In this document: piece by piece, positions 6,975-23,300 of the stretch | Layout of the letters: each line of letters begins with the position of its first letter | Position numbering within the stretch: position 1 is the first letter of the stretch | Assembly (NCBI GenBank): GCA_030537465.1 | Contig: JAUNMP010000027.1 | Location: forward strand, 1 to 35,739 | Direction of reading: 5' to 3' | Length of the DNA stretch: 35,739 nucleotides | Source: a bacterium | GTDB lineage: Bacteria; Verrucomicrobiota; Kiritimatiellia; RFP12; UBA1067 | Translations under genes and position numbers: made by a program | Notes under the pieces: model-generated | What the model was told of the DNA's origin: nothing | Databases searched by the model: none | Seen by the model: the letters and a program-made list of their open reading frames with translations, nothing else

Positions 6975-8255
6975 TCATGGTTTCAGACAGCCGATCGGGC
7001 AAACAAAGACGTTGTCGTCGGGACGCCGATAGGCACAATCGCCCACAGCCGTCAACACCATGAGGAACGAAGGCCTGGGCATTTTCCCCGTGTCAATCTT
7101 CCCCGCGAGCTTCACCAAAGTGGTAGCACCTTTGTCGATGAGCGGCTGCCCTCCAAGCTTGATTTCGACAAGGCCATAGGAGCCGTTGCGCAAATAGACC
7201 ACTGCGTCACATTCGAGCCCGCTTGCATCATGATAATGCCGTACGTCTCCCATCAAAGCATCCGCATAGACGCGCAAATCGCGGACGGCAAGGGCTTCAA
7301 AAAGAAAACCAAACGTTGGCAAATCTCCCATCAACCCACCAGGACCAATCCGCAACGCCGCCGTTGCGATGGAGGGATCCGTGTAGTAACGCGTATCCGA
7401 TGTCCGAATCGGTGTCTTGCAACGCAAATTCGGGCACCATGCCGGCATATCCTCAATCGCGAAAATCCGCTTCAACGCATTGATATACGAATACACGGTA
7501 TCCTCATTGAAGGCTCCGGCCTCGTGGGCGACAAGGTCCTCTTTGATGACGGCCGCCGTCGACTGGGTTCCTTGCAACCGCGCGTACGAACGCATGATCC
7601 GCCGTGCTCGATCTTCATCACGGGCGACTCCATCAACACGGGAGATATCCCGTTTGACCACGGCCTCCAGGTAGTCGAACGACGCATCGAGCGCCAACTC
7701 GCCAGACATCCCGCAGGTGACGGGCCAACCTCCACGGCAAATGACCTGCGCGACATCGGGCAACTCCGAAAGTACGGGATGTGCACCCGTCCGGTCCTCT
7801 CCCCTGAAGAGTCCGGAAAGCGAGACCTCTCCGGAGGATTCTCCAGATTCATACAGAGACATCGGACGCATTTTCAACCATGCGAAACGTCCCGTGCCAC
7901 TGTGCCTGATGTCGGAATCTTCCGACGGAACGGCCGATCCCGTCAATAGATACTGCCCCCGCACTTCCGCATGGTCTACCCGATAGCGAATGGCATCCCA
8001 CAAAACAGGTGCCTGCTGCCATTCATCGATGAGCCGTGGAGTCGCCCCATCCAGAATCTCCGACGGTCGAATCTTTGCCATCAGCAGATTGTGTTCACGT
8101 TTTTCCGGCTCATCAAGGTAAACGACACTCTTGGCAGCCTGTTCACATGTCGTTGTTTTCCCACACCACTTGATCCCCTCGACGAGAATGGCCCCCGCCG
8201 TCTGCGAACGGCGGGCCAACAAATCATCCAAAACTCGTTTTCTGTAAGATTTCAT
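6975..8255 (-). CDS. AAA+ ATPase with DUF4143 / PD-(D/E)XK-like C-terminus
   Basis: 426 residues. The N-terminal AAA_14-type ATPase has Walker A GIKWCGKTT (K33, T34) and Walker B PRLIDEWQ (D77, E78), followed by LLTGSA (sensor-1-like). The C-terminal part matches the DUF4143 layout and ends in a restriction-fold pattern: D350, then E364-I-K366 in VEIKLGG. Members are widespread, often in many copies per genome, with no settled function; roles in mobile or selfish elements and defence have been suggested. An extended -10 lies only 6 nt before the ATG (8255), so the message may be leaderless. A palindrome and a 4 x 23-bp array lie just upstream. The gene is 66 nt before the PRTase gene but functionally unrelated to it. 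Confidence 0.8.
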   Translation of the reverse strand: MKSYRKRVLDDLLARRSQTAGAILVEGIKWCGKTTTCEQAAKSVVYLDEPEKREHNLLMAKIRPSEILDGATPRLIDEWQQAPVLWDAIRYRVDHAEVRGQYLLTGSAVPSEDSDIRHSGTGRFAWLKMRPMSLYESGESSGEVSLSGLFRGEDRTGAHPVLSELPDVAQVICRGGWPVTCGMSGELALDASFDYLEAVVKRDISRVDGVARDEDRARRIMRSYARLQGTQSTAAVIKEDLVAHEAGAFNEDTVYSYINALKRIFAIEDMPAWCPNLRCKTPIRTSDTRYYTDPSIATAALRIGPGGLMGDLPTFGFLFEALAVRDLRVYADALMGDVRHYHDASGLECDAVVYLRNGSYGLVEIKLGGQPLIDKGATTLVKLAGKIDTGKMPRPSFLMVLTAVGDCAYRRPDDNVFVCPIGCLKP

Positions 8256-8261
8256 GCTGAT

Positions 8262-8270
8262 AGTATAGCA
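8262..8270 (-). promoter_or_regulatory. Extended -10 promoter of the AAA+ ATPase gene (leaderless type)
   Basis: TGCTATACT on the minus strand, with only 6 nt (8256-8261) to the ATG. A start site 6-7 nt past the box would fall at or next to the A of the ATG. No ribosome-binding site is possible in this space. The -35 is poor. Confidence 0.6.
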
Positions 8271-8288
8271 GAATCCAAATCAGGATTC
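8271..8288. promoter_or_regulatory. Candidate operator palindrome upstream of the ATPase -10
   Basis: GAATCC (8271-8276) and GGATTC (8283-8288) are perfect inverted hexamers separated by 6 bp. They occupy the -10/-35 spacer of the ATPase promoter, where a bound regulator would block transcription. Confidence 0.4.
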
Positions 8289-8294
8289 CAGCCA

Positions 8295-8386
8295 TTCGGC
8301 CAGTTGATGGACTTTTGTTCGGTCAGTTGGTGGATTTTAGTTCCGACAGTTGAGGAATCTTCATTCCGCCAATTGGTGATTTTGCA
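8295..8386. repeat. Four tandem 23-bp degenerate direct repeats
   Basis: Units start at 8295, 8318, 8341 and 8364 with no gaps. All begin TTCSGNCA and follow with (A/G)TTG and a GGATTTT-like tract; units 1 and 2 match best. The array fills most of the 160-bp gap between the ATPase promoter and the end of the FAD oxidoreductase gene. There are no spacers, so it is not CRISPR. It may be an iteron-like operator or a leftover transposon end with several transposase-binding repeats, as in IS21-family ends. No transposase gene is present in the window. Confidence 0.7.
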
Positions 8387-8415
8387 GCAGAAGACGTGAA
8401 ATTTCCAGGAGGACT

Positions 8416-9810
8416 CTACCCCAGGTAGGCACCTTGATCGCGGAGAACACGCTGGATCTCGGCAACAGGCGCCTGACGCGCCGTGCAGCCGTGCTTGGCG
8501 GCGACGGCGGCGGCCACGCCGGCGGCATGGCCGGAGACGAAGCAGGGACCAATCAGGCGTACGCGGTCGATGAGATCCGGTGTGCAGCCCAGGCAGCGTC
8601 CGCAGGCGACCACGTTCTCCACCCCCTTCGGAAGCAGCGAACGATAGGGAATCTGGAATTCCGGACGCTGGAAGGCGTCGTCGCCACCCACGGCCACCAC
8701 GTCGTCAAACGTACGCTGCGCCAGCGCGCCCTCGCGGTCGATGAGGAGCTCGGCATCCAAGAGGCGCGAGGCCCGCACGCCGAGCTGGGAACAGGTGTCC
8801 ATGAGGAACAGCTTCTCGAAGCCCGGCTTCGCATGGAGCCGCTCGAAGCTCTTCCAGGTCCGACGACGATGCTCCACTTCGCGCTGGGACATCGTGCGGA
8901 TGTCGAGTCCGTTGCCCTTCTGCTCCTTGGGCGAGAGCGGCGAACCGCCCCAGCAGGCGGACTCGACCGGTTGATCGCCGAGACGCAGACCCTGCGCGGC
9001 CTTGGGATCCTGCGTCCGGTCGATGCGGTCGATGTTGCCGAAGCGGCGGATGAACCCGATGCCGTGGGTGATCTGGCGGTAGTTGGCCCCCGCCTGGAAG
9101 AAGACGTCGCCGTCGCCCGTCGCATCGACGACCTGCTTGGCGAGAATCGCCTGGCGACCCTGCTTCGATTCAAAGACCACGCCCTGGACGGCGTTCCCCG
9201 CCTGGATGACGTCGACGCCCCAGGCGTGGAAGAACATGTCCACCTTCGCCTCGGCGATCATCTCGTCCATCAGGACCTTCGCCGCCTCGGGATCGGCATC
9301 GGGCTGCCAGAGATCCTGCTTGACGTAGTGCGGACGATTCGAAATGCCGTTGGGCATCTTCTTCAGACGATCCATGAATTCGCCGCACACGCCCTTGGTG
9401 ACGAGCTTGAACTTGCCATCCTCCTTGACGCCGACGGCGAGAATCAGGAGCACCATGCCGTTCGTGAAGAGTCCGCCCAGCGAACCATAGCGCTCCACGA
9501 GGGCGACCTTTGCGCCGGTCCGCGCCGCACCGACGGCCGCGGCGAAGCCGGCGGGGCCGCCGCCGACGACCACCACGTCCGCCTTCGAAAAGACGGGAAT
9601 CGTCCGACGGGGCTGGACGACCTGGCCGTTCTCGAGGAACGCGGAGGGACCGTCCTCCATTGTATGCGGCAGATCGGAGATCATCTGGCTGAAGCCCTTG
9701 TAGAACGGGTCGCCGATCACGGTCTCGTCGGCGCGGAGCGCCCCGGCCGTCATCCCCGCAAGTCCCGCAAGCCCCAGCTTGCCCAACATGTCACGACGCG
9801 TCAAATCCAT
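8416..9810 (-). CDS. Tat-exported FAD-dependent oxidoreductase (FAD_oxidored family)
   Basis: 464 residues. The start MDLTRRDMLGKLGLAGLAGM is a twin-arginine signal, in keeping with export of a folded, FAD-loaded protein. The dinucleotide-binding motif VVVGGGPAGFAAA lies at about residues 80-91, the second FAD contact is VVDATGDGDVFFQAG, and the C-terminal block CGRCLGCTPDLIDRVRLIGPCFVSGHAAGVAA closes the FAD site as in PF12831 proteins. The substrate is unknown; relatives in PVC and Bacteroidota genomes accompany glycan-degradation loci. SD-like AAGGAA precedes the ATG. It follows the alpha-2-macroglobulin gene by 38 nt and is likely the last gene of that operon. Confidence 0.8.
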   Translation of the reverse strand: MDLTRRDMLGKLGLAGLAGMTAGALRADETVIGDPFYKGFSQMISDLPHTMEDGPSAFLENGQVVQPRRTIPVFSKADVVVVGGGPAGFAAAVGAARTGAKVALVERYGSLGGLFTNGMVLLILAVGVKEDGKFKLVTKGVCGEFMDRLKKMPNGISNRPHYVKQDLWQPDADPEAAKVLMDEMIAEAKVDMFFHAWGVDVIQAGNAVQGVVFESKQGRQAILAKQVVDATGDGDVFFQAGANYRQITHGIGFIRRFGNIDRIDRTQDPKAAQGLRLGDQPVESACWGGSPLSPKEQKGNGLDIRTMSQREVEHRRRTWKSFERLHAKPGFEKLFLMDTCSQLGVRASRLLDAELLIDREGALAQRTFDDVVAVGGDDAFQRPEFQIPYRSLLPKGVENVVACGRCLGCTPDLIDRVRLIGPCFVSGHAAGVAAAVAAKHGCTARQAPVAEIQRVLRDQGAYLG

Positions 9811-9848
9811 TGTCTTATTCCTTTCTTGAATTGTGAACCGAAAACTCT

Positions 9849-12800
9849 TTACTTCACCTCGATCTTCTCCGCGGCGGAATGGGCCGTGAACTCCGGCGCG
9901 TACATGCACTGAAGCGTCGCGAGGCCGCCCGAGAAGACGCCGCGCTGCTGGACGCGGAAGGACGTCTCCAGCACGAACTCGCCCTTCCCGAGACGGTCGA
10001 TGTAGTAGTGCGTCGCCGTGTCGCGCGTCGCCTGATAGAAGCCCACGCCATCGTGCCAACGATAGGACGACAGCACGTCGACGGGTTCGCAGCAGCTCGG
10101 CCGCTCGTCCTTCAGATGCACGTACTCGTAGACGCGGTCGCTGATCAGGACGAGGCGCGCCACGAGTTCGTCCCCCTGCTCCACGACGCCGTTCACGGCC
10201 TCGAGACGGACGCCCTGCGGCGTGTGGATCTTCTTGTAGTACTTCTTCTCGACGCGAAGTTCCTTCGGCTCGTGGGCCCGAACCTTGAGGACGTCCTCGA
10301 AGTACGACCAGTGGACGCCACCCCAGGCCACGCCTCCCTTGCCGTCCGCCGTGAACGAGATGTTCCCCATCTCCGGCTTGACGTCCGCGGGCTTGACCCG
10401 ATACGAGTAGCGTCCCGTCCCCTCCTCGGCGTTCTCCTTCGGCACCTCGACCGAACCCAGCTTCACCGTGGCGAGCGCACCGCCCGCAAGCAGATCGGAT
10501 CCACCGTCCAGTAGCAGTGCGTAGATGGCGTCCGCCGTCGTGACGGTCGAGCTCCAGTTCTGCGTCTGCTTCTGCTTGAGCATCCAGGCGCGGCAGGCGT
10601 CGACGCTCTCGGCATCCTTCGCCACTTCGAGGAACGCCTCGACAATCGCAGCCTGGGTGGAGACGGGCGCCGCGAAGAGGCTCGAGGAGAAGAACGACGA
10701 CCGCTTCCAGTACATGCCCATCTCGTCCGAAACGATCGCACGCTCCTTCAACGAGGCCATGATGTCGCGCGCCGTCGCCAACCGTCCCGCACGCTGCAGG
10801 ACGATCGCCGCATCGGCCTGTGCCGCAAGACCGAGCCGCGTCCACGCCTTCTCCAGCTCGTCCAGCAGGAAGGACGACGTTTTCTTGTCCGGCGGCGGGA
10901 CGTTTGCGAAACTGTGCAGATAGAGCCAGTGGATGTCGAAGCCCGACAGCACGAACGGCAGATTCTTCTTCTTCCGACGATCCGCGATGTCCTCTTCGAC
11001 CTTTTCGTCGAGCGTCTCGCAGACCGAATCAAAATAGTCCGGCCATTCAACGCCCGCGATGCGGTTGAGGCGCGCAAAGCCTGTCAGAATGTAGAGCGTC
11101 ACGCCCTCGGAGGGATGTCCGCCTGGGAACCACGGCCACATCCCGCCCGCCAGGTTCAGACGCAGCTTCGCGAGACAGCGCGTCTGCTCGGCATCGAGAC
11201 GGCCCTTTTCGAAGAACGCGCCGATCCGCGCCCGTGCGGCAGTCTCGTGACGGGCCTCACGCACCCACGGCGTCGAATCGAGGGCAATGGTCTTGAGACG
11301 CTCGTTCGTCTCGAGCGGACTCTTCAGCGCCTCCGCCCCCGCGGCCGTCCACGCGTCGAACATCGCACGGATCCGCGAATCGCTGTTCGCGATGTAGGCT
11401 CCAAGAGCATTCGCATAGTAGCGGCTGAACGTCTGCTCGTTGCACTCGTGCGGGAACTCCATCAGATACGGGAGCGACAGTACCGCGTACCAGGCGGGAC
11501 GCGAAACGACGTCGACCGTGAGATCCTGATGGCGGAGCGTGTCGGAGGACGCGCTCGCCAGCAGATTCGAGAGCGCGAATGTCCGTGTCACCGCACCGCG
11601 CGCCTGCAGCTGGACGGCCTCCTGGACAAGGATGCGACGCGACAGGACGGGCAGCCAGCCCTCCTCGCCATCGGCGAACGTCCCGCCCTTCGCCTTCGCG
11701 ACGTATTTCAGGAAACCCTGTCCGTCGGGAATCGCCACGTCAAATTCGAACGTCCGCGTCTCGGTCGGCTTCAGGTCAAACGCCAGCGTACCGCCGCCCA
11801 CCGTTGCCGGCGCACCGGTTTCGACATCCTCGAACGCGAGCGAGACCTCGCCCTTCTGCGGCGTTTCGGAGGCATTCGTGACCTTCACGGCAATGCGGAA
11901 GACATCCCCCTCGCGGGCGAAGCGCGGCGCGTTGGGCTCGACCATCAGCGACTTCTGCGTGACGATCTCCGCATCCTCCAGATGGCCGCTCGCAAGGTCC
12001 TTGTCATGCGCCAGGACGAAGAGCTTCCACCCCGTCAGGGCGTCCGGCGCCGTGAACGTAAAGGACACCTTTCCGTCGGCGTCCGTCTCCAGATTCGGCA
12101 GGAAGAATCCGGTTTCCTGCAGATTGCGCCGGACCGGGACATCGGGTTCGGGACGCGCCTCGACCTCCGCATCGGCCACGGGGGCGGCCGCTGGAGCCGG
12201 CATGCTCTCCTCCATCACCATGTTGGCCTCCGGCATGGGCGCCGACCGCATCAACATGCGGGCGCCCCCCGCCGCGGCAGCGGCCAGCATCGCACCACCC
12301 CCAAACCGATTCCTGTAGGATTCGAGAGCCTTGAAGGAAGGCCATTTGAGAATCGGCATGTAATGGGTGCTGGGGAAATGTCCGCAGAGGTGATACATGT
12401 CGACGAACTTGTTCTGCAAAGACGGTGTTGCGATGTATCGTTCGCGGGAATCGAAATAAATCGAATTGACCAGACGGGCATTGTGCCACCGAAACGCGTC
12501 CAGCGACTTGTCGTACATGAACGCAAGAACCTCGGCCAAGGCCGCGTCGCCCGTCAGTTTGGATGTCACGCGGAACGTCCAGGTCTCCTTCGTGCCCGGT
12601 TCGAGGCGGCTTGTCAGATGCTCGGCCTTGACGGAGAGATATTTATTGTCCCAGGGCACATTCACGCACTCGCGCTGACGATAGAGACGGTTTTCCCGCA
12701 GGAATTCCGTCGTGACGATGATTGCGCCCCGATGGTCGTCCCGTACGGGGATCTCGACGAAACGGAACGGCTTGGACATGTCCGTCTGCTCGTCGAACAG

Positions 12801-15710
12801 GGCCTTGCCGTTGTGCGTCGCGCGAATCCGGCACGTTCCCGTCGCATAGCCGCTCGACCAGAAGAAGCGAATCGTCTCGCCGACCGGCACGTGCGTCTTC
12901 TCGATTTTGAAGAAGTCCGGCACGCAGAGCGGCGCCGTTCCCGCCGTGTCGAACACGCAGACGTTCTCGGGGGCGCGAAACGCCCGACCCTGCGGATCCT
13001 GGGACGTGAACTCGAGGCGGTAGGCCCCCGCCGGCAGCGACAGCGGCGTGGCGGCACGGCCCTTCGCATCCGTCTCGAGGGCGACCGCCTGGACACACGC
13101 GCCCTGCTTCCACGTCTTCCAGTCCCACGGCGTCTCCGCATCAGCACCCTTCCGAGCCGATGTAGACGAACCAGATTCGTTCCGCGGCAGAGATGCGCGC
13201 ACGACCTGCGGTGGCGCGATGAGCGCATAGACCTTCAATGTGCCTTTCGTCGCCACCGGCACGCCGTCATGCGTGGCGACCGCAACAGTCGCGGTGACGG
13301 GCGCGGACGCCGTCAACCATCGGTCGGACGTCCAGACTTCGGCCTTCCAGGCCACCACGCCCACGCGAAAGCGCCGCGCCGCGACCCGGGCCTCCCCCGT
13401 TCCATCGACGACTTCCGCCGTCAGGTCGAAGGAGAAGACGGGCTCGCCGTCGAGATTGGCCGTGGCGCTCGGCTGAGGCGTGAAAGTCCACTCGAACGCA
13501 CCCGACGCATCCGTCGTCGCCTCGCCCGAGGCGACCAGCTCGTTGTCGTCGTCGCCCCGCGTCGTCCCGAACCAGCTCCACCAGGACGGATAGGCCGTCG
13601 ACCGCTTCACACGCCACTTCACGCGCGCCTGCTGCACGGGAAGTCCCGAATAGGTCTTCGCCACGCCCGTCACCTTCGTCGGCGTGCCCAGACGGACATC
13701 GGACTCCCCGTTTTTCAGTTCCACCGTGAACTTCGGCCGCTTGTACTCCTCGACGTTCAGGTGGCAAGTCGTCTGCGCTGCCGGCAATTTGTAGTCTTCG
13801 GGCACAAGACGCGCCTTGAGTTCATAGGAGCCCACCATCCGGTCCGCCGGCGCCGTGACCGAGCCGTAGAACGATCCCCACGCCGTCGTCGTGTGCCGCT
13901 CGCCCTTGACGGGCTTGCCGTTTGGATCCAGGAAGTCGATGACGACGGTACGGCCTTTGCAGACATGGGATTCCTTGGCCTCGGGATTGATGCAGTAGGC
14001 GACGCCCTTGAACTTGATCTCCTGTCCCGGACGATAGATGGCCCGATCCGTCACCAGATCGACATGTTCGTAGTTCGTCGGGCGCGGCGATTCCGTAATG
14101 CCCGATCCCAGCGTCCCCAGCGAGAGAACCTCATGGTCGCCGTCAACGGCCCGCATGAATCCGTAGAGACGGTCCTTCGCGAACGCAAACGTGCCGTCTT
14201 CCCGCGTCTTCTCCTCCGCCGTCTTCTTCCAGCTGTTGCGGCTGCTGGACTCCCAGAACTCAATGGTCACCCCCGCCGCGGGAAGGCCGGACTCGGCACG
14301 GAAGACGCGTCCCGTCAGGGTACCGTGGTCCCCCGCCACCGTCAGAGCCAGATCGGTCACCGTGACGGAAAGCGCCCGCATGACCTTGTCGTTCTTGGCG
14401 AAATCCTTGTCCATCGACGCCAGAAGGACATAATGCCCCGGTTTCAGATCCGTGGGAATCGGGAACTTCGCCACATGTTCCTCGTAATCCTTCGGATTGT
14501 CGAGGGCGACCTGCCAGGACTTGACGCCGAAGAGCTTGGTCGAGATGTTCTTGCAGATCTTCTTGCTGTTGTCCCGATAGAAGCGGTTGTCGAGGAGGTC
14601 GTTCTCGCGGACATCATCGAAGGAGACGCGCGCAATCCTGAAGACAAGCTGCGAGAGATTGCGGGAGCGGACTTCGATTTCCGTCTTCGGCGTGGACCAG
14701 GTCCGTTCCGTAGCAACCGAAAACTCCGGCTTTTCCATCTCCGAGACCAGCGAACGGCAGGCGTGTCCGCCCACCGCCTCCGGCCAACGCGCCGCGTATT
14801 TCTCTGCGAGGTCATGGGCGGCGACGCGTTCGCCGGCCTTCTCCAGCGCGTTGGCGCGATGGTAGGCCGCCAACGCCACGACTTCGGTCTTCCCGTCATA
14901 GACCTTCAGAAAGGCGTCAAGCGCGGCGGCGTACTTTTCGTCCTTCTCCTTCGAAGGAACGTTCTCGAAGGCGTGGACGTAGCGGATCCGCGCGAGTTCG
15001 GCATCGGCCAGGGCATCAAGCGTCGCGTCGGCCCGATGAAGCGCCAAACGCCGATCGAGCAGACGGCACCCCTTCTCCAGCGTCTTGTCGGGGATCGTCC
15101 GGCCATAGAAGTCGAGCATGTCGTGAATCGCCACGTCGAACAGAGTCGGCCGGTAGCTCGTCGGCAGATGCCCCTTGTCGACGAGAATGGACCAGTCCTC
15201 GACGCGACAGGCCCGCAGATCCTCCGCACACGCGAGGACCTTCTGAAAGACGGACTCCAGGGTCGCGTCGATGCGCTCGGCGGACCACGGCGGCAGATTC
15301 GTTGCCGCGCCGTCCGTCAATTTCGTCGGTTTGCGTCCGCCCCAGCGCCAAGACTCCGACTGACGCTTGTAGACATGGGCCAGATGCAGCTGGAGAACGC
15401 CCTGAATCTCCGCCGGCGCCGCGTCGACGCGCGCCGCATAGTCCGGCAGCCACTCCTCGGCCCGCTCGTCGCGCAGCGATTCCTCCACGCCTTCGATGCG
15501 CATCAGCGCCTGCGCCGCGTCCGGCCACTTCTTCGCCGCAATCGCCGCGGTGGAGATCCGCGAGAGCAGATTCGTCACCGTCCGCGGCAGCGCCTTGCGT
15601 TCCGCCGCACGGACCTCTTTCCAAGCCTTGTCGAAATCAAATGCCGTATCCGCCATAACCCCTCCCACGCATGAAAACAGAATCACGAAAGCACACAGAA
15701 ACCTCTTCAT
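9849..15710 (-). CDS. Alpha-2-macroglobulin family protein with thioester
   Basis: 1,953 residues from the ATG at 15710, which follows GGAGGAGG directly after the stop of the upstream gene. A signal peptide ends near VMA-DTA; LFSC could be a weak lipobox. Order: a helical N-terminal region (1-430); macroglobulin domains including VDLVTDRAIYRPGQEIKFKG (about 547-567); a Met/Pro/Ala-rich bait-like stretch (about 1147-1200); the ANA/complement-type segment RRNLQETGFFLPNL and FTAPDALTGWKL; the CNEQ thioester (C1423) in FPHECNEQTFSRYY; and a C-terminal receptor-like domain. These proteins trap proteases that cut the bait, here in the periplasm or at the cell surface. No pbpC partner is adjacent, unlike enterobacterial versions; the layout is closer to Bacteroidota homologues. 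Confidence 0.9.
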   Translation of the reverse strand: MKRFLCAFVILFSCVGGVMADTAFDFDKAWKEVRAAERKALPRTVTNLLSRISTAAIAAKKWPDAAQALMRIEGVEESLRDERAEEWLPDYAARVDAAPAEIQGVLQLHLAHVYKRQSESWRWGGRKPTKLTDGAATNLPPWSAERIDATLESVFQKVLACAEDLRACRVEDWSILVDKGHLPTSYRPTLFDVAIHDMLDFYGRTIPDKTLEKGCRLLDRRLALHRADATLDALADAELARIRYVHAFENVPSKEKDEKYAAALDAFLKVYDGKTEVVALAAYHRANALEKAGERVAAHDLAEKYAARWPEAVGGHACRSLVSEMEKPEFSVATERTWSTPKTEIEVRSRNLSQLVFRIARVSFDDVRENDLLDNRFYRDNSKKICKNISTKLFGVKSWQVALDNPKDYEEHVAKFPIPTDLKPGHYVLLASMDKDFAKNDKVMRALSVTVTDLALTVAGDHGTLTGRVFRAESGLPAAGVTIEFWESSSRNSWKKTAEEKTREDGTFAFAKDRLYGFMRAVDGDHEVLSLGTLGSGITESPRPTNYEHVDLVTDRAIYRPGQEIKFKGVAYCINPEAKESHVCKGRTVVIDFLDPNGKPVKGERHTTTAWGSFYGSVTAPADRMVGSYELKARLVPEDYKLPAAQTTCHLNVEEYKRPKFTVELKNGESDVRLGTPTKVTGVAKTYSGLPVQQARVKWRVKRSTAYPSWWSWFGTTRGDDDNELVASGEATTDASGAFEWTFTPQPSATANLDGEPVFSFDLTAEVVDGTGEARVAARRFRVGVVAWKAEVWTSDRWLTASAPVTATVAVATHDGVPVATKGTLKVYALIAPPQVVRASLPRNESGSSTSARKGADAETPWDWKTWKQGACVQAVALETDAKGRAATPLSLPAGAYRLEFTSQDPQGRAFRAPENVCVFDTAGTAPLCVPDFFKIEKTHVPVGETIRFFWSSGYATGTCRIRATHNGKALFDEQTDMSKPFRFVEIPVRDDHRGAIIVTTEFLRENRLYRQRECVNVPWDNKYLSVKAEHLTSRLEPGTKETWTFRVTSKLTGDAALAEVLAFMYDKSLDAFRWHNARLVNSIYFDSRERYIATPSLQNKFVDMYHLCGHFPSTHYMPILKWPSFKALESYRNRFGGGAMLAAAAAGGARMLMRSAPMPEANMVMEESMPAPAAAPVADAEVEARPEPDVPVRRNLQETGFFLPNLETDADGKVSFTFTAPDALTGWKLFVLAHDKDLASGHLEDAEIVTQKSLMVEPNAPRFAREGDVFRIAVKVTNASETPQKGEVSLAFEDVETGAPATVGGGTLAFDLKPTETRTFEFDVAIPDGQGFLKYVAKAKGGTFADGEEGWLPVLSRRILVQEAVQLQARGAVTRTFALSNLLASASSDTLRHQDLTVDVVSRPAWYAVLSLPYLMEFPHECNEQTFSRYYANALGAYIANSDSRIRAMFDAWTAAGAEALKSPLETNERLKTIALDSTPWVREARHETAARARIGAFFEKGRLDAEQTRCLAKLRLNLAGGMWPWFPGGHPSEGVTLYILTGFARLNRIAGVEWPDYFDSVCETLDEKVEEDIADRRKKKNLPFVLSGFDIHWLYLHSFANVPPPDKKTSSFLLDELEKAWTRLGLAAQADAAIVLQRAGRLATARDIMASLKERAIVSDEMGMYWKRSSFFSSSLFAAPVSTQAAIVEAFLEVAKDAESVDACRAWMLKQKQTQNWSSTVTTADAIYALLLDGGSDLLAGGALATVKLGSVEVPKENAEEGTGRYSYRVKPADVKPEMGNISFTADGKGGVAWGGVHWSYFEDVLKVRAHEPKELRVEKKYYKKIHTPQGVRLEAVNGVVEQGDELVARLVLISDRVYEYVHLKDERPSCCEPVDVLSSYRWHDGVGFYQATRDTATHYYIDRLGKGEFVLETSFRVQQRGVFSGGLATLQCMYAPEFTAHSAAEKIEVK

Positions 15711-15720
15711 GTCCTCCTCC

Positions 15721-17526
15721 TCATTCCGCACGCAGTTTTTTCAGATACTCGGGGAACAGTTCACGCTTGACCGTTTCACGATACGCGAGCACCCCATACG
15801 CGGCGCAATCCGCCGCCCACTTCTCTATGGCCTCTTTTCGGCTTGCGAGGCGATCCCAGCGCAGGTCCCGCTTCTCCGCGGCGACACGATAGTCATCCCA
15901 GCAGAGGATGAACAAATGATCGACCGACAGTTCTTCCCGCCGCACCCGGCGCGCGAAGACCTCTCCGTCCTTTTCGGCGGCACGTACGGCTTTACGCATC
16001 AGCGCCGCGGCGTCCAGCGCCTCGTCCGGCGTCAGGAACTCCGCCGCCTTGTGGTAACAGCCAACAAACGCGCCCTTCGCCCGCGGCGCGGACTCGATCC
16101 GCTCAAGGTAGAGCTTCAGGTACGGAAACGCCCTCTTCCCATAATATCCTTTCAGGAATTCCTCTATGAGCAGATTCTCGTTCGCAGCGGGATTCCAAAG
16201 AAGATGCGACGTGAGGTAATGGCGCAGTGCCACGAAGTTCCCCGCCGAGCAGAGGGCGTCCCCCTGCTCGAAGATTCCCGTGGCGCCATTGTCGCGGAAG
16301 AGGCGGATGTTCGGTGCGATGGAGCCAATGTTCGGATGTGGCATCATGTAGCTCGTGAAATTCGCGAGATAATCCCAGATGAAGAGGCGTCCGGACGCCA
16401 CGCGGCTCCAGTCCTGCAGGTCCTTCACGAAGGCCGCGTTGCGGGCATGCCGGCCCTCTGCCAGGGGCGTGGAGAAGTCGCACTCGATGTCGCAGAGGCG
16501 CACGACCACGTTGTGCCGCGGACGCGTCTTCGTGGGCGCCTTGCGGGTAAACTGGTAGGCGAAGGTGTCCACGCGCACATTCGGGAACTCCCTCTCGACG
16601 GCCTCGGCCACCTCGTTCGCAAAACGGAGGTAGGGTCCGGACGGCACGCCGCCATCCTCCGCCTCAAGCGCCCTGCACGCCGCGCATTCGCATGCGCCGT
16701 TCCAGTCGTTCTGCGAAACCTGGATGAAGTCGACGGACGAATCCTCCCGCAGACGTCGCAGCGTCTCGGCAATGTACGCCTTCTTCATCTCGATGTTCGC
16801 AAGGCAGAGCTGCTTCGGAACACGTTTCCCCTTCACGAGCGAGAACCAGTCGGGATGCGCCTTGAAGTAGTTCGACGGTGCAAGAATCTCGAAGAAGGAA
16901 TGATAGGCACTGTGGCGCCCTTCAAAGAAGTAGAGACGATGATTCCCGCCCTTCTCCGGCGGAATGAACGCCATGTCCGTGAACATGAAGCGCGTCAGCG
17001 AGGAGAAGTTGCCCTTGGAACGGACCTTGAACGTCGGGTCGAACCCATCGAGATAATAGGTCTCGCGATAGGCGAACGGCGGCGCAAAGGAATAGTCGAC
17101 GTTCTCGACCGGGGCGTTCTCAAGACGCGGATAATCGGCTTCGGTGGAGGTCCACCACCGTACGCCACAGTAGTTCTCGAGATAGAGGTCGACCGCGTAG
17201 AGCGGCGCCCGCGCGGGATCGCCGGCAAGGACGACACCGTCCGGCACGGACTTGAGCAGAACCTCATCCGTCTTCCAGGTCTTGTCGCTCCGCACTGCAT
17301 CCAGGGCCGTCGTGGCACCGACGAAGAATTTCACGGCATCAGCGGGCGCATCCTTCTCTGCGACTGTGGGAACCTGTACCCCGAGAACCTTCCCGAGACC
17401 TTTAGCCAGCTCAATCGCGGCCGACTTCTCGACCGCTGTTGGATTGTCCGGAAGAACGGCGACGGCGCCCGCGGCAAACACAGTAGACGCGAGTGCGGAA
17501 ACAAAGCTACAAACCGCGAATCTCAT
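15721..17526 (-). CDS. Secreted DUF4838-domain protein (glycan-degradation associated)
   Basis: 601 residues from the ATG at 17526, which begins a good signal peptide cut near VFA-AGA. The N-terminal 25-180 region resembles the alpha-glucuronidase/GH20 N-terminal-like fold (FFVGATTALDAV, LYLENYCGVRWW). The middle carries the DUF4838 signature: VSQNDWNGACECAACRA near residue 268, then FAYQFTRKAPTKTRP and FIWDYLANF. DUF4838 proteins have a TIM-barrel-like body and are common in polysaccharide utilisation regions of PVC and Bacteroidota bacteria; catalytic activity is not established. The gene has its own extended -10 only 6 nt from the ATG and is followed after 10 nt by the alpha-2-macroglobulin gene. 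Confidence 0.85.
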   Translation of the reverse strand: MRFAVCSFVSALASTVFAAGAVAVLPDNPTAVEKSAAIELAKGLGKVLGVQVPTVAEKDAPADAVKFFVGATTALDAVRSDKTWKTDEVLLKSVPDGVVLAGDPARAPLYAVDLYLENYCGVRWWTSTEADYPRLENAPVENVDYSFAPPFAYRETYYLDGFDPTFKVRSKGNFSSLTRFMFTDMAFIPPEKGGNHRLYFFEGRHSAYHSFFEILAPSNYFKAHPDWFSLVKGKRVPKQLCLANIEMKKAYIAETLRRLREDSSVDFIQVSQNDWNGACECAACRALEAEDGGVPSGPYLRFANEVAEAVEREFPNVRVDTFAYQFTRKAPTKTRPRHNVVVRLCDIECDFSTPLAEGRHARNAAFVKDLQDWSRVASGRLFIWDYLANFTSYMMPHPNIGSIAPNIRLFRDNGATGIFEQGDALCSAGNFVALRHYLTSHLLWNPAANENLLIEEFLKGYYGKRAFPYLKLYLERIESAPRAKGAFVGCYHKAAEFLTPDEALDAAALMRKAVRAAEKDGEVFARRVRREELSVDHLFILCWDDYRVAAEKRDLRWDRLASRKEAIEKWAADCAAYGVLAYRETVKRELFPEYLKKLRAE

Positions 17527-17532
17527 GCCCGT

Positions 17533-17541
17533 ATTGTACCA
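17533..17541 (-). promoter_or_regulatory. Extended -10 promoter of the DUF4838 gene (leaderless type)
   Basis: TGGTACAAT on the minus strand, with 6 nt (17527-17532) to the ATG. No ribosome-binding site fits; no good -35 at 16-18 nt. Confidence 0.5.
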
Positions 17542-17590
17542 TAAATGCCGAGAACACGGGACGGCTGCATGGGACAACGAGCCGCTGTCT

Positions 17591-20113
17591 CTAGCGCATT
17601 CCAGTCGCCTGTACATCCACCGTGACGGGCGGGAGACCTTCAGACGTGAATGTCACGGAGATGGCACCCGTCTGCCCCGGCTTGGCGCGGACAAGGGCGG
17701 AAAGAAGACCATTGAACGTCTTGCGCGAGGGATCGCGCATCCAGGTGAAGTCCGTCTCGTCACCGTTTTCAATCGAATGGAACGAACCAACACCAGATAC
17801 CGTCACCGTGACGGGGATCTTCGCCGTCGGGCAGAAGTTCCCGTCCTTGTCGACGACCTTCAACGTCACGTACCCGACATCCTCGCCATCCGCGGCAATC
17901 GTCCTACGCTCGGGCGTCGCGACAAGGCGCGCCGGCGCGCCCGCCGTGCGGACCGTCTCCTCCGCCCAGACCTGGCCCTTCCGATAGGCGACAGCCTTGA
18001 CCGTGCCAGGTTGGTAGACAACCTCGTTGAAGCAGAAGCGCCACAGTCCCTTCTCACGCGCCTTGCGGCCCTGCGAGACGCCATTCACAAACAATTCAAC
18101 CTCGTCCCCCGAGGAATAGACGTAGACAGGCGTCACCTGGCCGACGCGGTCTGGCCAGTTCCAATGCGGCAGGATGTGAACGGAGGGCGTCTCTGGACAC
18201 CAACGCGCGAGGTACAGATAGCCTTCATCCTTCAAAAGCCCCGCGAGGTCGAAAACACCGGTCGGGCACGAATGGATGCCGCCGCGAACGCGCCCATAAC
18301 GCTCCCGCTCCGCCATCGCCTCGGCCTGGCGCTTCGGGTCCGAGTAGTTCGGCTTCTGGCTGCGCTGGATCATCACCGCCGGCGACCCGAAGTAATCGAA
18401 GGCCGTCCAGGCGAAACTCCCCGCGACGAACGGATTGGCGTCCTGCTGAGACCATTCGTAGTCCGCGGGGCGGATGGTGTGATGCCCATAGGACGACGAG
18501 TAGTAGTCGACATAGGTCTTGCCGGATGGCGGAAGCCCCCATTTGTCGACCTTCTTGCCCATGAAGTAGAACTGGTACTCGCCGCGGCTCGTCTGCGTGC
18601 ACATCGTCTCAGTTCCCACAACGGGACGACCCGGCCAGAGCTTTCGGTACTCGGCATAGTTCTCGGGACGGTAGTTGAAGCCCCAGACATCGGTGAACTG
18701 GGCATAGGGAGATCTCCAGACGTCGACGTTGTCGTTCGCCGTCGTCGTCGGACGCGTCAGGTCCTCCTGATGGGCGATGCGAACCATCTCCACGCCATTT
18801 TTCTGATAGAGGGGCCAATTGTGGCTTCCGCTGCGCGACTCCCAGATCTCGTTGCCGAGCGACCAGATGATGATCGAGGGATGGTTGCGGTGGCGGCGGA
18901 TCATCGTCCGGAGGTCGCGTTCATGCCAATTCGGAAAGAGCCGATGATAGTCGTTGTAGAGCTTGGGGAGCCCCCAGGCGTCCGTCAGTTCATCCATCAC
19001 GAGGATGCCCATCTCATCGCAGAGCTCGTACCAGTCCGTCGCATGCGGATAGTGGCTCATGCGGATGGCGTTCATGCCCAGTGCCTTCGCCTTTTCGAGA
19101 CGACGGCGAATGGCGGTGCGATTCGCCACCGAACCGAGGGAACAGAGATCCTGGTGGAAGCAGAAGCCCTTGAGCTGCACACGGCGTCCGTTCAAGTGAA
19201 AACCGTCGTCGACCGTCCACTTGATCGTGCGGATGCCATAGCGGTACGAGTTGCCTTCAATGTCGACCGTGTAGAGATAGGGGTCGTCGACATCCCAGAG
19301 GCGCGGTTTCTCGACCGTGAAGGACTTCTCCTTCTTCCCGCCCTTCGCCATTTCATAAGTCACCTTCACGGTGGCCCTTTCGCGCGTGGCCTCCGGCGTC
19401 GTGATCGACACGGAATCGGGAATCACGTAGTCGGCGGGGGCGGACTCCATCCAGCAGCGGCGCGTCAGTCCCACGCCCGTATGCCAACGGGCGTAGTTCT
19501 CAGGGCGGTACGTGCGAATGGAGAGGACATTCTCCCCCTCTTTGAGCGCCGGCGTCAGATCCACACGCCACGGCATATAGCCATTCGGCCAGCCGCCGAC
19601 GAACGTACCGTTGAGCCACACGAGCGGGAACGCCATCGCGCCGTCGCAGTTGAAGAAGACGCGTCCGTCCTTCTCCCGCGGCAGTTCGCCCTTCGCAAGC
19701 TTGATCCGACCATCGGCGACCTGGAACGTGTAGCGGTACCATGCCGTCCCCGTACCTGGCAGATAACCATCGAACGGATGGAGATCATAGGCGAAGGAAT
19801 AGGCAATCGCGGCGTCATGCGGCACACGGACGGAGGTCCAGTCCTTCGGCTTGAACGTCGCCTTCAGGTAGGGATGCGTCATTCCTGGCTTCGATCCGAC
19901 ACGTGTACACGACGCACTCGGCAGTTCCAGCAGATCGCGGCGCTGCCCATCCAGCATCTCAAGCATGGAGGGAATCGAGAACTCGCGCAACGGCCCCAGC
20001 GTCTCGTCCTGCGTAAACAGCCAGCCGTCGTTCAGTTCAACACGTTCCGTGCGTGCGACAACACACAGCGCCAGCAGCGACGCTCCAACCAGAAACGAAG
20101 CCCTCATACCCAT
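17591..20113 (-). CDS. GH2 family beta-galactosidase-type glycoside hydrolase
   Basis: 840 residues. The ATG at 20113 shares a base with the stop of the upstream gene (TGATG), so translation is coupled. Signal peptide residues 1-22. Domains: sugar-binding jelly roll (about 25-210: WYRYTF, FVGGWPNGYMPWRVDLT), Ig-like GH2 domain, TIM barrel, and Ig-like C-terminal domains (YSSGDEVELFVNGVSQG; then a bacterial Ig-like VKVVDKDGNFCPTA segment). Catalytic residues: acid/base E422 in WSLGNEIWE and nucleophile E502 in VVGTETMC. RMSHYPHATDWYELCDEMGILVMDE is the usual GH2 core. Substrate is probably a beta-linked galactoside or glucuronide in the periplasm. Pairing with the GH50-like protein suggests beta-galactosides released from a galactan. 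Confidence 0.9.
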   Translation of the reverse strand: MGMRASFLVGASLLALCVVARTERVELNDGWLFTQDETLGPLREFSIPSMLEMLDGQRRDLLELPSASCTRVGSKPGMTHPYLKATFKPKDWTSVRVPHDAAIAYSFAYDLHPFDGYLPGTGTAWYRYTFQVADGRIKLAKGELPREKDGRVFFNCDGAMAFPLVWLNGTFVGGWPNGYMPWRVDLTPALKEGENVLSIRTYRPENYARWHTGVGLTRRCWMESAPADYVIPDSVSITTPEATRERATVKVTYEMAKGGKKEKSFTVEKPRLWDVDDPYLYTVDIEGNSYRYGIRTIKWTVDDGFHLNGRRVQLKGFCFHQDLCSLGSVANRTAIRRRLEKAKALGMNAIRMSHYPHATDWYELCDEMGILVMDELTDAWGLPKLYNDYHRLFPNWHERDLRTMIRRHRNHPSIIIWSLGNEIWESRSGSHNWPLYQKNGVEMVRIAHQEDLTRPTTTANDNVDVWRSPYAQFTDVWGFNYRPENYAEYRKLWPGRPVVGTETMCTQTSRGEYQFYFMGKKVDKWGLPPSGKTYVDYYSSSYGHHTIRPADYEWSQQDANPFVAGSFAWTAFDYFGSPAVMIQRSQKPNYSDPKRQAEAMAERERYGRVRGGIHSCPTGVFDLAGLLKDEGYLYLARWCPETPSVHILPHWNWPDRVGQVTPVYVYSSGDEVELFVNGVSQGRKAREKGLWRFCFNEVVYQPGTVKAVAYRKGQVWAEETVRTAGAPARLVATPERRTIAADGEDVGYVTLKVVDKDGNFCPTAKIPVTVTVSGVGSFHSIENGDETDFTWMRDPSRKTFNGLLSALVRAKPGQTGAISVTFTSEGLPPVTVDVQATGMR

Positions 20114-23100
20114 CACTTCGCCTTGCTGCGGGTTTCGTAGAGCGGATAGCCGACTTCGCGAAGCGCCTTGACCGTCTCGGCGTAGGGTTTATCGCAGATG
20201 TCCGTCCAGCCGACCTGGAAGTACTCGCCGTCGAAACGGCCGGAGGTCGCCTGGTCGGAGAACTGGTGCCAGTGCACGCCGACCATCTGGGGATTCTTGA
20301 GCGCGGACTCGACATACGCCTTGAGCGCAGCGCCACGGGCTTCCTGCGATCCCACGTTGATGAGGCTGGCCCCGAAAAGGCCGCGGTCATGTGCGCCGAA
20401 GTGGAACTCGCCGATCATTACAGGGGCATCGAGATTCTCCGGCAGACGCCAATCGAGAATCGTCTCCGCATAGATGTTGTAGCTCACGACATCGCAGTAC
20501 TTCGCGCTCGCCTTGATAGCCCAGGGACGCGCCGAGCCGGCGAAACGGCAGCCCAGATAGAGGAGTCCCGGATCGAACTCCCTGAGGGCGGCGCGCGTCC
20601 GCTTGAAATACTCTTCCACAATCACGTCGGTGAACGCGCGGAGCTCCTCGGCGGGGATCTTGTCGATGTTGCCGTCCCAGACGATGCCCTTGGCGGCAAG
20701 GCGTTTCACGAATTCGATCTTCGCGGGCTGGTCGTCTGGACTCCACAGCGTCCAACGGGCGAGATCCTCGTGCTTGGCGCCCCACTGGATCTCGTTGTCG
20801 ATGAAGAAGCCGATGCACCAGGGATCGTGCGCCTCGCGGCCGTGTTCGGCGAGCGCAGAGAGGCACGCCGTGCGGAACGTCGGGTCGAACGGATCGCGGA
20901 ACTTGAACCAGGAGCCCCAGCTGCCCGCAATCGGACGCGAGGCCACCTCAACGCGCTCGGCGTAGGGCGTGCGGTCCTGCAGACAGATCTTGAGGTCGCT
21001 TGAGTTCGCAATCGTGTTGCAGCCCCAGCTGCGCAGACGGCGGTGGCAGGAATCGGAGTACTTCTCGAACCACTGTTCGCCATACTTGCGGTAGAGGTTG
21101 GCGGCGGAGAAGTCGAAGCGGCGCGTCTGGTCGCGCTTCAGGTAGAACGGCAGCAGCAGCGCATCGTAGGTGTCGTAGAACTGCGCGAGGGGATCACCCT
21201 TCTTCGGGAGATCCGTGAAAAGGCAGTCGCGGTCGGGCATCGCACCCCCACACTTCGGCGTACGGGGATTGCCGTTGAGCGGGGTGAGGGCCGAGCTCGG
21301 CGTGACGCGGACGGGGCCCCAGCTCCAGAAGAGGTTGCCCTCGGGGTCGACCAGCCACCACTTGCCGTCGATCTTCTTGGGATAGAAGCGCCCCGTGGCC
21401 TGTTGCTTCGGTCCCTTGGTCCACCCCCCGAACTGATCGCGGTCGGCGGGGCCGGGATTGGCGGCGAGGTCCGCCTCCTCGGCGGCCATCCCGGACTTCA
21501 GTTCCTCGTCGGAATGTGTCTTGCCCGGCCAGTCGCGCCATTTGAACTGGCCGAACTTGTCGAAGCACGGCAGGAAGTCCTTCGTCGCCATCTTCGTCCA
21601 GGGCTCGTTCGACGTGTCCATCTTTTTAGGGCGGCCGGTTCGACCAAAGCAGAGTCCCTGGTTGGGGCGATAGAGCGCGTCGACGATCTCCGCCGGCTTC
21701 ATGTTCGGCCAGTCCGTTTTGCGCGGCACCTGGTTGTTCGCGGTCAACATCACCGGGGAGTCCCAGAGCGGGAGTCCCTTCGCGATCGTGCGGTCCCCTT
21801 CGCGGACGACGTTCTCCTTCGGGAACCTGCAGATCTTGCCCGTGAGCAGATCCACCCACGCAAGGTCGCGCTGTGCGAACACGTCGAAGGCCACATCGCC
21901 CCGTTCGTAGGCCAGCGTGTCGTTGGGACGCTCGCCTGAGAACCACATCACGTGGACGGGGTTGGAGTAACGCTCGAACTTCGCCACGGTGAGTTCCTTG
22001 CCGTTCACCGTCTGCTTTGTCACGGAGACGGGATGGACATCCTCGTCGAAGTACGAGAAGACATGCTGCATCGCGTAGAAGCTCGGGCGACGATAGACGA
22101 CTTCCTTGAGGAGACTGCAGCGCAGCAGGCCGAAGCTCTGGAGCATGAACGTGTACTGCAGGTCCACGCAGGTGAAGACGCTCGAGGGAATGTCTCGCGC
22201 GGCGTCGCCGATCGTGCGGCGGAGGTTCCACTTCGCCTGGGAGTACTCGGTCCACTCGACGCCATTGATGGCATGGGCGTACTCAAGCTGGGAAGGACAG
22301 CCGACCTCGCCCTGGAAGATGTCGAAGTTCGGCGAGTAGCTCTTGACGAACGCGCGGAGAGGTTCCGCGAGCGTCGCATAGGAGGTGTCGGGGTTCGGCG
22401 TGTAGGGATGGTAGATGAAGAGGCTCGCGAGATCGAGCGCGTTCTCCTTCTTCAGACGCTCGAGCAGCACGCCGTAGTCGCTCTCGATCGGCGTCTTGCC
22501 CTTCTTCGTCCAGGAAATCGCCGTCACATAGCACTTCGCGTTCGGCTGCACGGCACGGATGGCCTTCGCTGTGCGGTAGAACATCTCGGCGTATTCCGGA
22601 GCCTGGTGGAACGGTTCGTTCCAGATCTCCCACTCGTCGACGACGTCCTTATAGCGCTCGACGCAGGCCGTGCAGTAGCGCAGCCACGCCTCGAAGGCCT
22701 CGGGATTGTCCGTGACCTGCTTCACGCGCATGCCGAGGCGGAAGTCGCTACCCCACACGGGATTGCCGTAGGAGAGGCAGATCCAGGGCTTCACGCCCAT
22801 CGCCGCCATCTCGCGCACCTGGGGATCAAGCCACGTGAAGTCGTATTTGCCCTTTTCCTGCTCCGTCTTCGCCCAGCCGCTGAAGAGACGACCACGCTTC
22901 GCGCCGAGGTGCGGAAGATAGTCCTTGAAGGCGTTCCAGTCCGCGTAGTCGCGGTCCATCGTCTCGCAGCCGATCGACCACTTTGAACCTTTAATGTCGC
23001 TCGCAAGACGCGTCTCAAGCACGCCAGCGGGCTCGAGCCCGCTCTCGAGCTGGCAGACCTTCTTCCAGGTGACGGAGGGCTTCTCCTTCTCAAAGATCGA

Positions 23101-23265
23101 CTTAGGAGTCTTCTTCTTGAGATGGTCACTCCAGGCGTCCCAGCTCTTGATCTTCGCGGCGTCCTTGAAGGAAACGACGCCGGGGGCCACGGGAGCCGCA
23201 CCGAAAACAGAGGATGAAGCCAGCACGCCGCCGGCGAACAGAAGAACGGTGTTAGACAGTTTCAT
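20113..23265 (-). CDS. Two-module glycoside hydrolase: GH39-like plus GH50 (beta-agarase)-like
   Basis: 1,050 residues with signal peptide 1-23 (cut near VFG-AAP). The N-terminal half is a clan-A TIM barrel resembling GH39/GH5: candidate acid/base E217 in EWEIWNEPFHQ and nucleophile E320 in DIFQGEVGCPS. The C-terminal half (about 640-1050) matches GH50 beta-agarases: GKWWLVDPEGNLFWSWG, GFFIDNEIQWG (E825) and VMIGEFHFGAHDRGLFG (E953), then the VGVHWHQFSDQATSGRFDGEYFQVGW block. GH50 enzymes are normally separate, so this is an uncommon fusion. Residues 420-640 form a linking beta domain. Likely periplasmic or secreted attack on a galactan-type polymer. The family of the N-terminal module is less certain. 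Confidence 0.8.
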   Translation of the reverse strand: MKLSNTVLLFAGGVLASSSVFGAAPVAPGVVSFKDAAKIKSWDAWSDHLKKKTPKSIFEKEKPSVTWKKVCQLESGLEPAGVLETRLASDIKGSKWSIGCETMDRDYADWNAFKDYLPHLGAKRGRLFSGWAKTEQEKGKYDFTWLDPQVREMAAMGVKPWICLSYGNPVWGSDFRLGMRVKQVTDNPEAFEAWLRYCTACVERYKDVVDEWEIWNEPFHQAPEYAEMFYRTAKAIRAVQPNAKCYVTAISWTKKGKTPIESDYGVLLERLKKENALDLASLFIYHPYTPNPDTSYATLAEPLRAFVKSYSPNFDIFQGEVGCPSQLEYAHAINGVEWTEYSQAKWNLRRTIGDAARDIPSSVFTCVDLQYTFMLQSFGLLRCSLLKEVVYRRPSFYAMQHVFSYFDEDVHPVSVTKQTVNGKELTVAKFERYSNPVHVMWFSGERPNDTLAYERGDVAFDVFAQRDLAWVDLLTGKICRFPKENVVREGDRTIAKGLPLWDSPVMLTANNQVPRKTDWPNMKPAEIVDALYRPNQGLCFGRTGRPKKMDTSNEPWTKMATKDFLPCFDKFGQFKWRDWPGKTHSDEELKSGMAAEEADLAANPGPADRDQFGGWTKGPKQQATGRFYPKKIDGKWWLVDPEGNLFWSWGPVRVTPSSALTPLNGNPRTPKCGGAMPDRDCLFTDLPKKGDPLAQFYDTYDALLLPFYLKRDQTRRFDFSAANLYRKYGEQWFEKYSDSCHRRLRSWGCNTIANSSDLKICLQDRTPYAERVEVASRPIAGSWGSWFKFRDPFDPTFRTACLSALAEHGREAHDPWCIGFFIDNEIQWGAKHEDLARWTLWSPDDQPAKIEFVKRLAAKGIVWDGNIDKIPAEELRAFTDVIVEEYFKRTRAALREFDPGLLYLGCRFAGSARPWAIKASAKYCDVVSYNIYAETILDWRLPENLDAPVMIGEFHFGAHDRGLFGASLINVGSQEARGAALKAYVESALKNPQMVGVHWHQFSDQATSGRFDGEYFQVGWTDICDKPYAETVKALREVGYPLYETRSKAK

Positions 23266-23293
23266 GACCGCAGTATACCAAATCGCCGCGGTC
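23266..23293. promoter_or_regulatory. Candidate operator flanking the -10 of the GH39/GH50 gene
   Basis: GACCGC (23266-23271) and GCGGTC (23288-23293) are perfect inverted hexamers 16 bp apart. They bracket the -10 box; one arm is exactly the 6 nt between the box and the ATG. Confidence 0.35.
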
Positions 23294-23300
23294 CAGTGAA
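23272..23300 (-). promoter_or_regulatory. Promoter of the GH39/GH50-GH2 operon (leaderless type)
   Basis: On the minus strand TTCACT (23295-23300), a 17-nt spacer and TATACT (23272-23277) preceded by TGG (extended -10). Only 6 nt separate the -10 from the ATG at 23265, so the message should start at or near the A of the start codon. It is the best-formed promoter in the window. Confidence 0.65.

Follow-up and report, generated by a model that had tools for sequence, protein, structure and literature searches.

Does a gene that joins a GH39-like module to a GH50 module encode a single bifunctional enzyme and, if so, is its substrate agar or some other glycan? The question is raised by the window, that is, the whole stretch of 35,739 nucleotides analysed here (contig JAUNMP010000027.1), which comes from an uncultured gut bacterium of the Kiritimatiellia. 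In its initial annotation, the frame was read from sequence as a secreted fusion of two catalytic modules; the frame proved to be real and open, with no internal stop across its 1050 residues, whereas the strand needed correcting to minus (Table 1). As had been proposed, two clan GH-A catalytic modules lie in one secreted protein, as seen from the signal peptide, both barrels and conserved glutamate pairs. The structure predicted for the full-length protein has a pLDDT of 86 and a pTM of 0.80. No family was matched by the fusion protein in an NCBIfam search, and a search of one literature collection for a GH39-GH50 fusion or a Kiritimatiellae GH50 found no published report. The modules are of known kinds; what is new is their combination and the loss of the agarase tunnel.

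Table 1 Features of the fusion locus (window coordinates)
Feature	Position	Strand	Remarks
GH39-like-GH50 fusion CDS	20113..23265	-	1050 aa; ATG at 23265, TGA at 20115-20113
Sec-type signal peptide	23200..23265	-	about residues 1-22, read by eye from the sequence
GH39-like module	21727..23109	-	residues 53-513; (beta/alpha)8 barrel and C-terminal beta-sandwich
E217, candidate acid/base	22615..22617	-	WEIWNEP, end of strand 4
E320, candidate nucleophile	22306..22308	-	IFQGEVGCP, strand 7
Linker	21604..21726	-	about residues 514-554; model confidence low at 537-546
C-terminal GH50 barrel	20116..21603	-	single-sequence, profile and fold matches to GH50
E825, acid/base	20791..20793	-	equivalent to Aga50D E534 (PMC11079163)
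E953, nucleophile	20407..20409	-	equivalent to Aga50D E695 (PMC11079163)
GH2 beta-galactosidase-like gene	17591..20113	-	own signal peptide; ATG overlaps the fusion TGA (TGATG)
Secreted DUF4838 protein	15721..17526	-	likely start ATG at 17526; signal peptide MRFAVCSF...
Promoter-like site	23272..23300	-	TTCACT, 17 nt, TG-extended TATACT; end of -10 box 6 nt from the ATG

The fusion was found in 23 further independent loci when about 85,000 species genomes were scanned with six short peptide patterns, a count that is a lower bound because only these patterns were used, and its full length is kept in all 23. The labelled metagenome-assembled genomes (MAGs) among them belong to Kiritimatiellae, Verrucomicrobia or Lentisphaerae, and the sources stated are ruminant gut or horse faeces, in agreement with the non-marine, host-associated origin suspected initially. 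Within the window's order, 32 copies are present in 30 of 162 genomes, all from the window's own family. The pairs tested gave dN/dS values of about 0.1-0.35 for each of the two halves, and purifying selection extends to the linker. The architecture is thus confirmed and biologically real, and a single family of bacteria from herbivore guts has conserved it. The initial annotation had itself allowed for a missing stop between two separate genes, and both halves do also occur as separate genes. Nevertheless, a missing stop is ruled out by the 30 fusion-bearing genomes together with the dN/dS values, and with a conserved linker and fused halves that group in parallel in both trees, an artefact of this kind or of an assembly join has next to no probability.

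In a quick tree, one clade of 26 rows (SH-aLRT 100) holds the GH50 halves of the fusions; its only stand-alone members are L026 and L034, the latter truncated at the end of its contig. The other 39 stand-alone GH50 proteins carry an N-terminal domain of about 180-200 residues or more, which the fusions lack. The GH39-like halves fall in a clade of 43 rows that mixes fused with stand-alone forms, with eight changes, at least five of them forced. Both trees are compatible with a single fusion after which the GH50 half was lost repeatedly, and repeated exchange is a possible alternative. Longer relatives were observed as well, namely a GH50-GH39-GH50 protein of 1638 residues (L115:845-5761, plus strand) and a GH50-GH39-GH50-GH95-like protein of 2314 residues (L116:788-7732, minus strand), which lacks the codon for the GH39 nucleophile (QGAGCPSQ). 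In six further loci (L054, L056, L062, L066, L070 and L081), stand-alone GH50 frames contain extra in-frame neighbour domains, including M14 peptidase-like, GxDLY-SGNH esterase, BPL_N and 3-keto-disaccharide hydrolase domains; some of these may reflect neighbouring frames read through in GC-rich DNA and not true fusions.

The N-terminal half scores 21.3 bits against Pfam PF01229, below the gathering cut-off of 26, and is for this reason called GH39-like here and not filed as a member of GH39. A profile built from 34 relatives matched PslG first (E 1e-14) and then GH39 beta-xylosidases. PslG is a GH39 endoglycosidase acting on the Psl exopolysaccharide. The predicted structure of this half (pLDDT 87) has the clan GH-A barrel followed by a C-terminal beta-sandwich as in GH39, and its best fold matches are GH39 5jvk (Z 30.8) and PslG (Z 28.4), with GH164 as the next family (Z 24). 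GH39 is thus the nearest family by both profile and fold despite the low Pfam score, in keeping with the assignment originally given.

The four glutamates first put forward as catalytic residues are invariant in the alignment of 24 fusions. With stand-alone relatives included, E217 and E320 are invariant in 49 of 49 GH39-like sequences (24 fusions and 25 stand-alone) and E825 and E953 in 65 of 65 GH50 sequences (24 and 41, respectively). In each barrel of the full-length model, the first glutamate (E217 or E825) sits at the end of strand 4 and the second (E320 or E953) on strand 7, so that the proposed pairs are borne out by both conservation and position. Because the GH39-like half sits where other GH50 enzymes have a CBM-like domain, and L116 has lost the GH39 nucleophile, it could be argued that only the GH50 half is enzymatic and that the N-terminal half is a binding or folding module replacing that domain. 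The invariance of E217 and E320 across all 49 sequences, fused and stand-alone, the low dN/dS of this half and the existence of close relatives as stand-alone enzymes make such a role very unlikely.

Single-sequence, profile and fold comparisons all agree on the GH50 identity of the C-terminal half: it matches Aga50D with an E-value of 9.8e-72 as a single sequence and about 1e-123 as a profile, its fold matches GH50 with Z 39-41 over about 490 residues, and its similarity to characterised enzymes spans the full length of the barrel. The closed tunnel of Aga50D is roofed by the CBM-like domain, which also provides plus subsites, and loop 350-375 closes off the tunnel end (PMC8551122). In AgaB50, deletion of this end-block loop is accompanied by exo-endo action; BpGH50 has no CBM-like domain, and its action on agarose is deficient (PMC8551122). 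In the fusion, the CBM-like domain of GH50_1 exo-agarases is absent and the GH39-like module stands in its place. The end-block loop is reduced to 2-15 residues in all 65 aligned sequences, and the active-site F742 of Aga50D corresponds to H1000, a histidine in 24 of 24 fusions. With the roof and end-block loop missing and F742 replaced, the processive, agarase-like action initially suggested is left unsupported.

The GH50 half might still be a true beta-agarase, that is, a galactanase of the agar or porphyran type acquired by a gut bacterium. The closest solved GH50 structures are marine beta-agarases, and N824, R1010 and E1014 are conserved besides the catalytic pair; against this stand the absent roof and loop, the histidine shared by all fusions, and sources that are guts of land herbivores. 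Nor is the family restricted to marine agarases: GH50 also contains two beta-1,3-glucanase subfamilies, GH50_2 and GH50_3, and VadG925 is set apart there for its distinct activity and cited as a beta-galactosidase (PMC11079163). A second alternative is therefore a beta-1,3-glucanase like those of GH50_2 and GH50_3, acting on callose or on fungal or cereal beta-glucan, because the GH50 enzymes that lack the CBM-like domain, Fsa16295Glu being an example, have beta-1,3-glucanase activity (PMC11079163). However, Fsa16295Glu retains the phenylalanine where the fusion has histidine, and the GH2 beta-galactosidase-like and galactonate-dehydratase-like neighbours described below point to galactose, so that a glucanase is unlikely.

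The TGATG junction between the fusion and the GH2 gene is real and supports the translational coupling suggested by the initial annotation. The GH2 protein is closest to beta-galactosidases and has a solved close relative in 5t98, which we take to be Bacteroides uniformis GH2A, a resemblance that would favour the agarase alternative. No relative of the DUF4838 protein was found among solved structures; its listed frame begins at 17616, as against the likely start given in Table 1. A conserved operon of GH2, DUF4838 and histidine kinase genes was considered and rejected, as this linkage is not general across relatives. The exceptions are L019, where the fusion is followed by an SDR gene, a dehydratase gene and a single GH2 and DUF4838 protein, and L060, where DUF4838 directly follows a Bacteroidales GH50. 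In L019, GH2 and DUF4838 share one frame of 1512 residues (L019:12220-16755, plus strand), whereas they are separate neighbouring genes in the window.

As judged from the promoter-like site directly 5' of its ATG, the fusion gene is probably where the transcription unit starts, and the short distance from the -10 box makes a leaderless or near-leaderless start likely. The motif TATANT occurs only three times on both strands of the window (62% GC), at 23277, 29135 and 8267 (minus strand), each time 5-8 bases ahead of the ATG of a predicted gene. Among 90 GC-rich related loci, some of them duplicates, ATG peaks 6-7 bases after TATANT, with 19 and 29 occurrences at 6 and 7 bases compared with about 4 expected per offset, which suggests that leaderless promoters are widespread in these Kiritimatiellae.

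An SDR gene and a galactonate-dehydratase-like gene are both present in the loci of 7 of the 24 fusions, six of which also have an MFS gene; many of the loci lie on short contigs. The SDR and dehydratase genes are also found with some GH39-like and GH50 genes that stand alone, and the oxidation cassette is absent beside the window's own fusion gene. Elsewhere in the same genome, a GH39-like paralogue lies in the row MFS-SDR-GH39-KDPG/KHG aldolase-dehydratase, suggesting that a released aldose is oxidised and its keto-deoxy acid cleaved; our best guess for this aldose, from gene content, is galactose. The dehydratase falls below both curated galactonate dehydratase cut-offs (301.5 against 311 bits and 308 against 750 bits). 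GH95-like genes are found beside or fused to relatives; GH95 is a family of alpha-L-fucosidases and galactosidases. Taken together with the GH2 beta-galactosidase-like and DUF4838 neighbours, the dehydrogenase, MFS and galactonate-dehydratase-like genes of relatives make the galactan-like glycan proposed earlier plausible, whereas specificity for agar is unsupported.

The genome that contains the window (5.19 Mb, 91% complete) was also searched for enzymes of galactan degradation. No sulfatase (PF00884) was matched in this 91% complete genome, while ten control genomes were positive, which argues against porphyran, carrageenan, sulfated algal galactans and sulfated mucin as substrates and leaves the agarase alternative quite unlikely. 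Cultured Kiritimatiellae are sulfatase-rich, and a complete lack of sulfatases would be unusual. GH53 and GH30_2 galactanases were likewise not found, with positive controls, and the porphyranase family gave no match either in this genome or in the controls. Two GH115 genes are present, one of them within 2 kb of a GH39-like paralogue; on one contig of this genome (G000:C327, about 8174-22403), GH115, a GH39-like paralogue and a DUF4838 gene occur together.

The fusion probably attacks a galactose-rich plant polymer rather than seaweed agar, and there is about an even chance that its target is an unsulfated plant galactan, perhaps of the arabinogalactan type. In the mechanism that we propose, the CBM-like domain ahead of the GH50 barrel would have been replaced by a GH39-like enzyme belonging to the PslG/BcGH39 branch, and the two barrels would cleave adjoining linkages in one branched plant galactan of the herbivore gut, unsulfated and, as the leading guess, of the arabinogalactan type. 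The open GH50 cleft would act at internal or branched sites and not as a processive tunnel, and the GH2 and DUF4838 proteins, translated together with the fusion, would complete the breakdown of the oligosaccharides. In many relatives, the released sugar, probably galactose, would be oxidised by the SDR and dehydrated by the galactonate-dehydratase-like enzyme. We consider this explanation as a whole, in which the gene product is one secreted, bifunctional retaining glycoside hydrolase whose substrate we infer only, to be evenly balanced between right and wrong. The sub-cut-off score of the dehydratase, the lack of a cassette at the window gene, its presence in only 7 of 24 loci and the lack of GH53 and GH30_2 count against it. 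More tentatively, and with somewhat less than an even chance, the fusions may represent a gut-specific bifunctional class, in which the GH39-like module replaced the GH50 roof, opened the tunnel and gave a non-agar, plant-galactan specificity, with the two sites acting on linkages next to each other in one branched glycan, and with the architecture expanded in some relatives to GH50-GH39-GH50 and four modules.

GH50 proteins are usually annotated as beta-agarases, and a conserved non-marine GH50 clade, with an open cleft and a second enzyme where the CBM-like domain would be, warns against inferring agar from them in metagenomes of herbivore guts. The fusion also offers a defined protein for studying a new GH50 specificity and the cooperation of two clan-A active sites.

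Compared with known systems, the N-terminal half finds its top fold and profile matches in PslG (5bx9, 9g17) and BcGH39 (5jvk), which have the same catalytic layout but share only about 18-20% identity with it and are each a single module. The C-terminal half has the same GH50 barrel as the exo-beta-agarases Aga50D (4bq2) and AgWH50C (5z6p), with E534/E695 equivalent to E825/E953 and N533, R752 and E757 of Aga50D retained; these agarases, however, have the roof, the end-block loop and Phe742, and only the fusion adds a second catalytic module. BpGH50 (5t3b) from gut Bacteroidetes shares with the fusion the gut source and the absence of the CBM-like domain, but is far more distant (profile E 1e-30 compared with 1e-123 for the agarases) and unfused. 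Fsa16295Glu, a GH50_3 beta-1,3-endoglucanase, is likewise non-marine and without the CBM-like domain, but is a single module from a hyperthermophile in which the active-site phenylalanine is kept. VadG925 of Victivallis vadensis, compared here by its description only, is a GH50 from gut Verrucomicrobiota that is reported to be a beta-galactosidase and to be untypical as an agarase.
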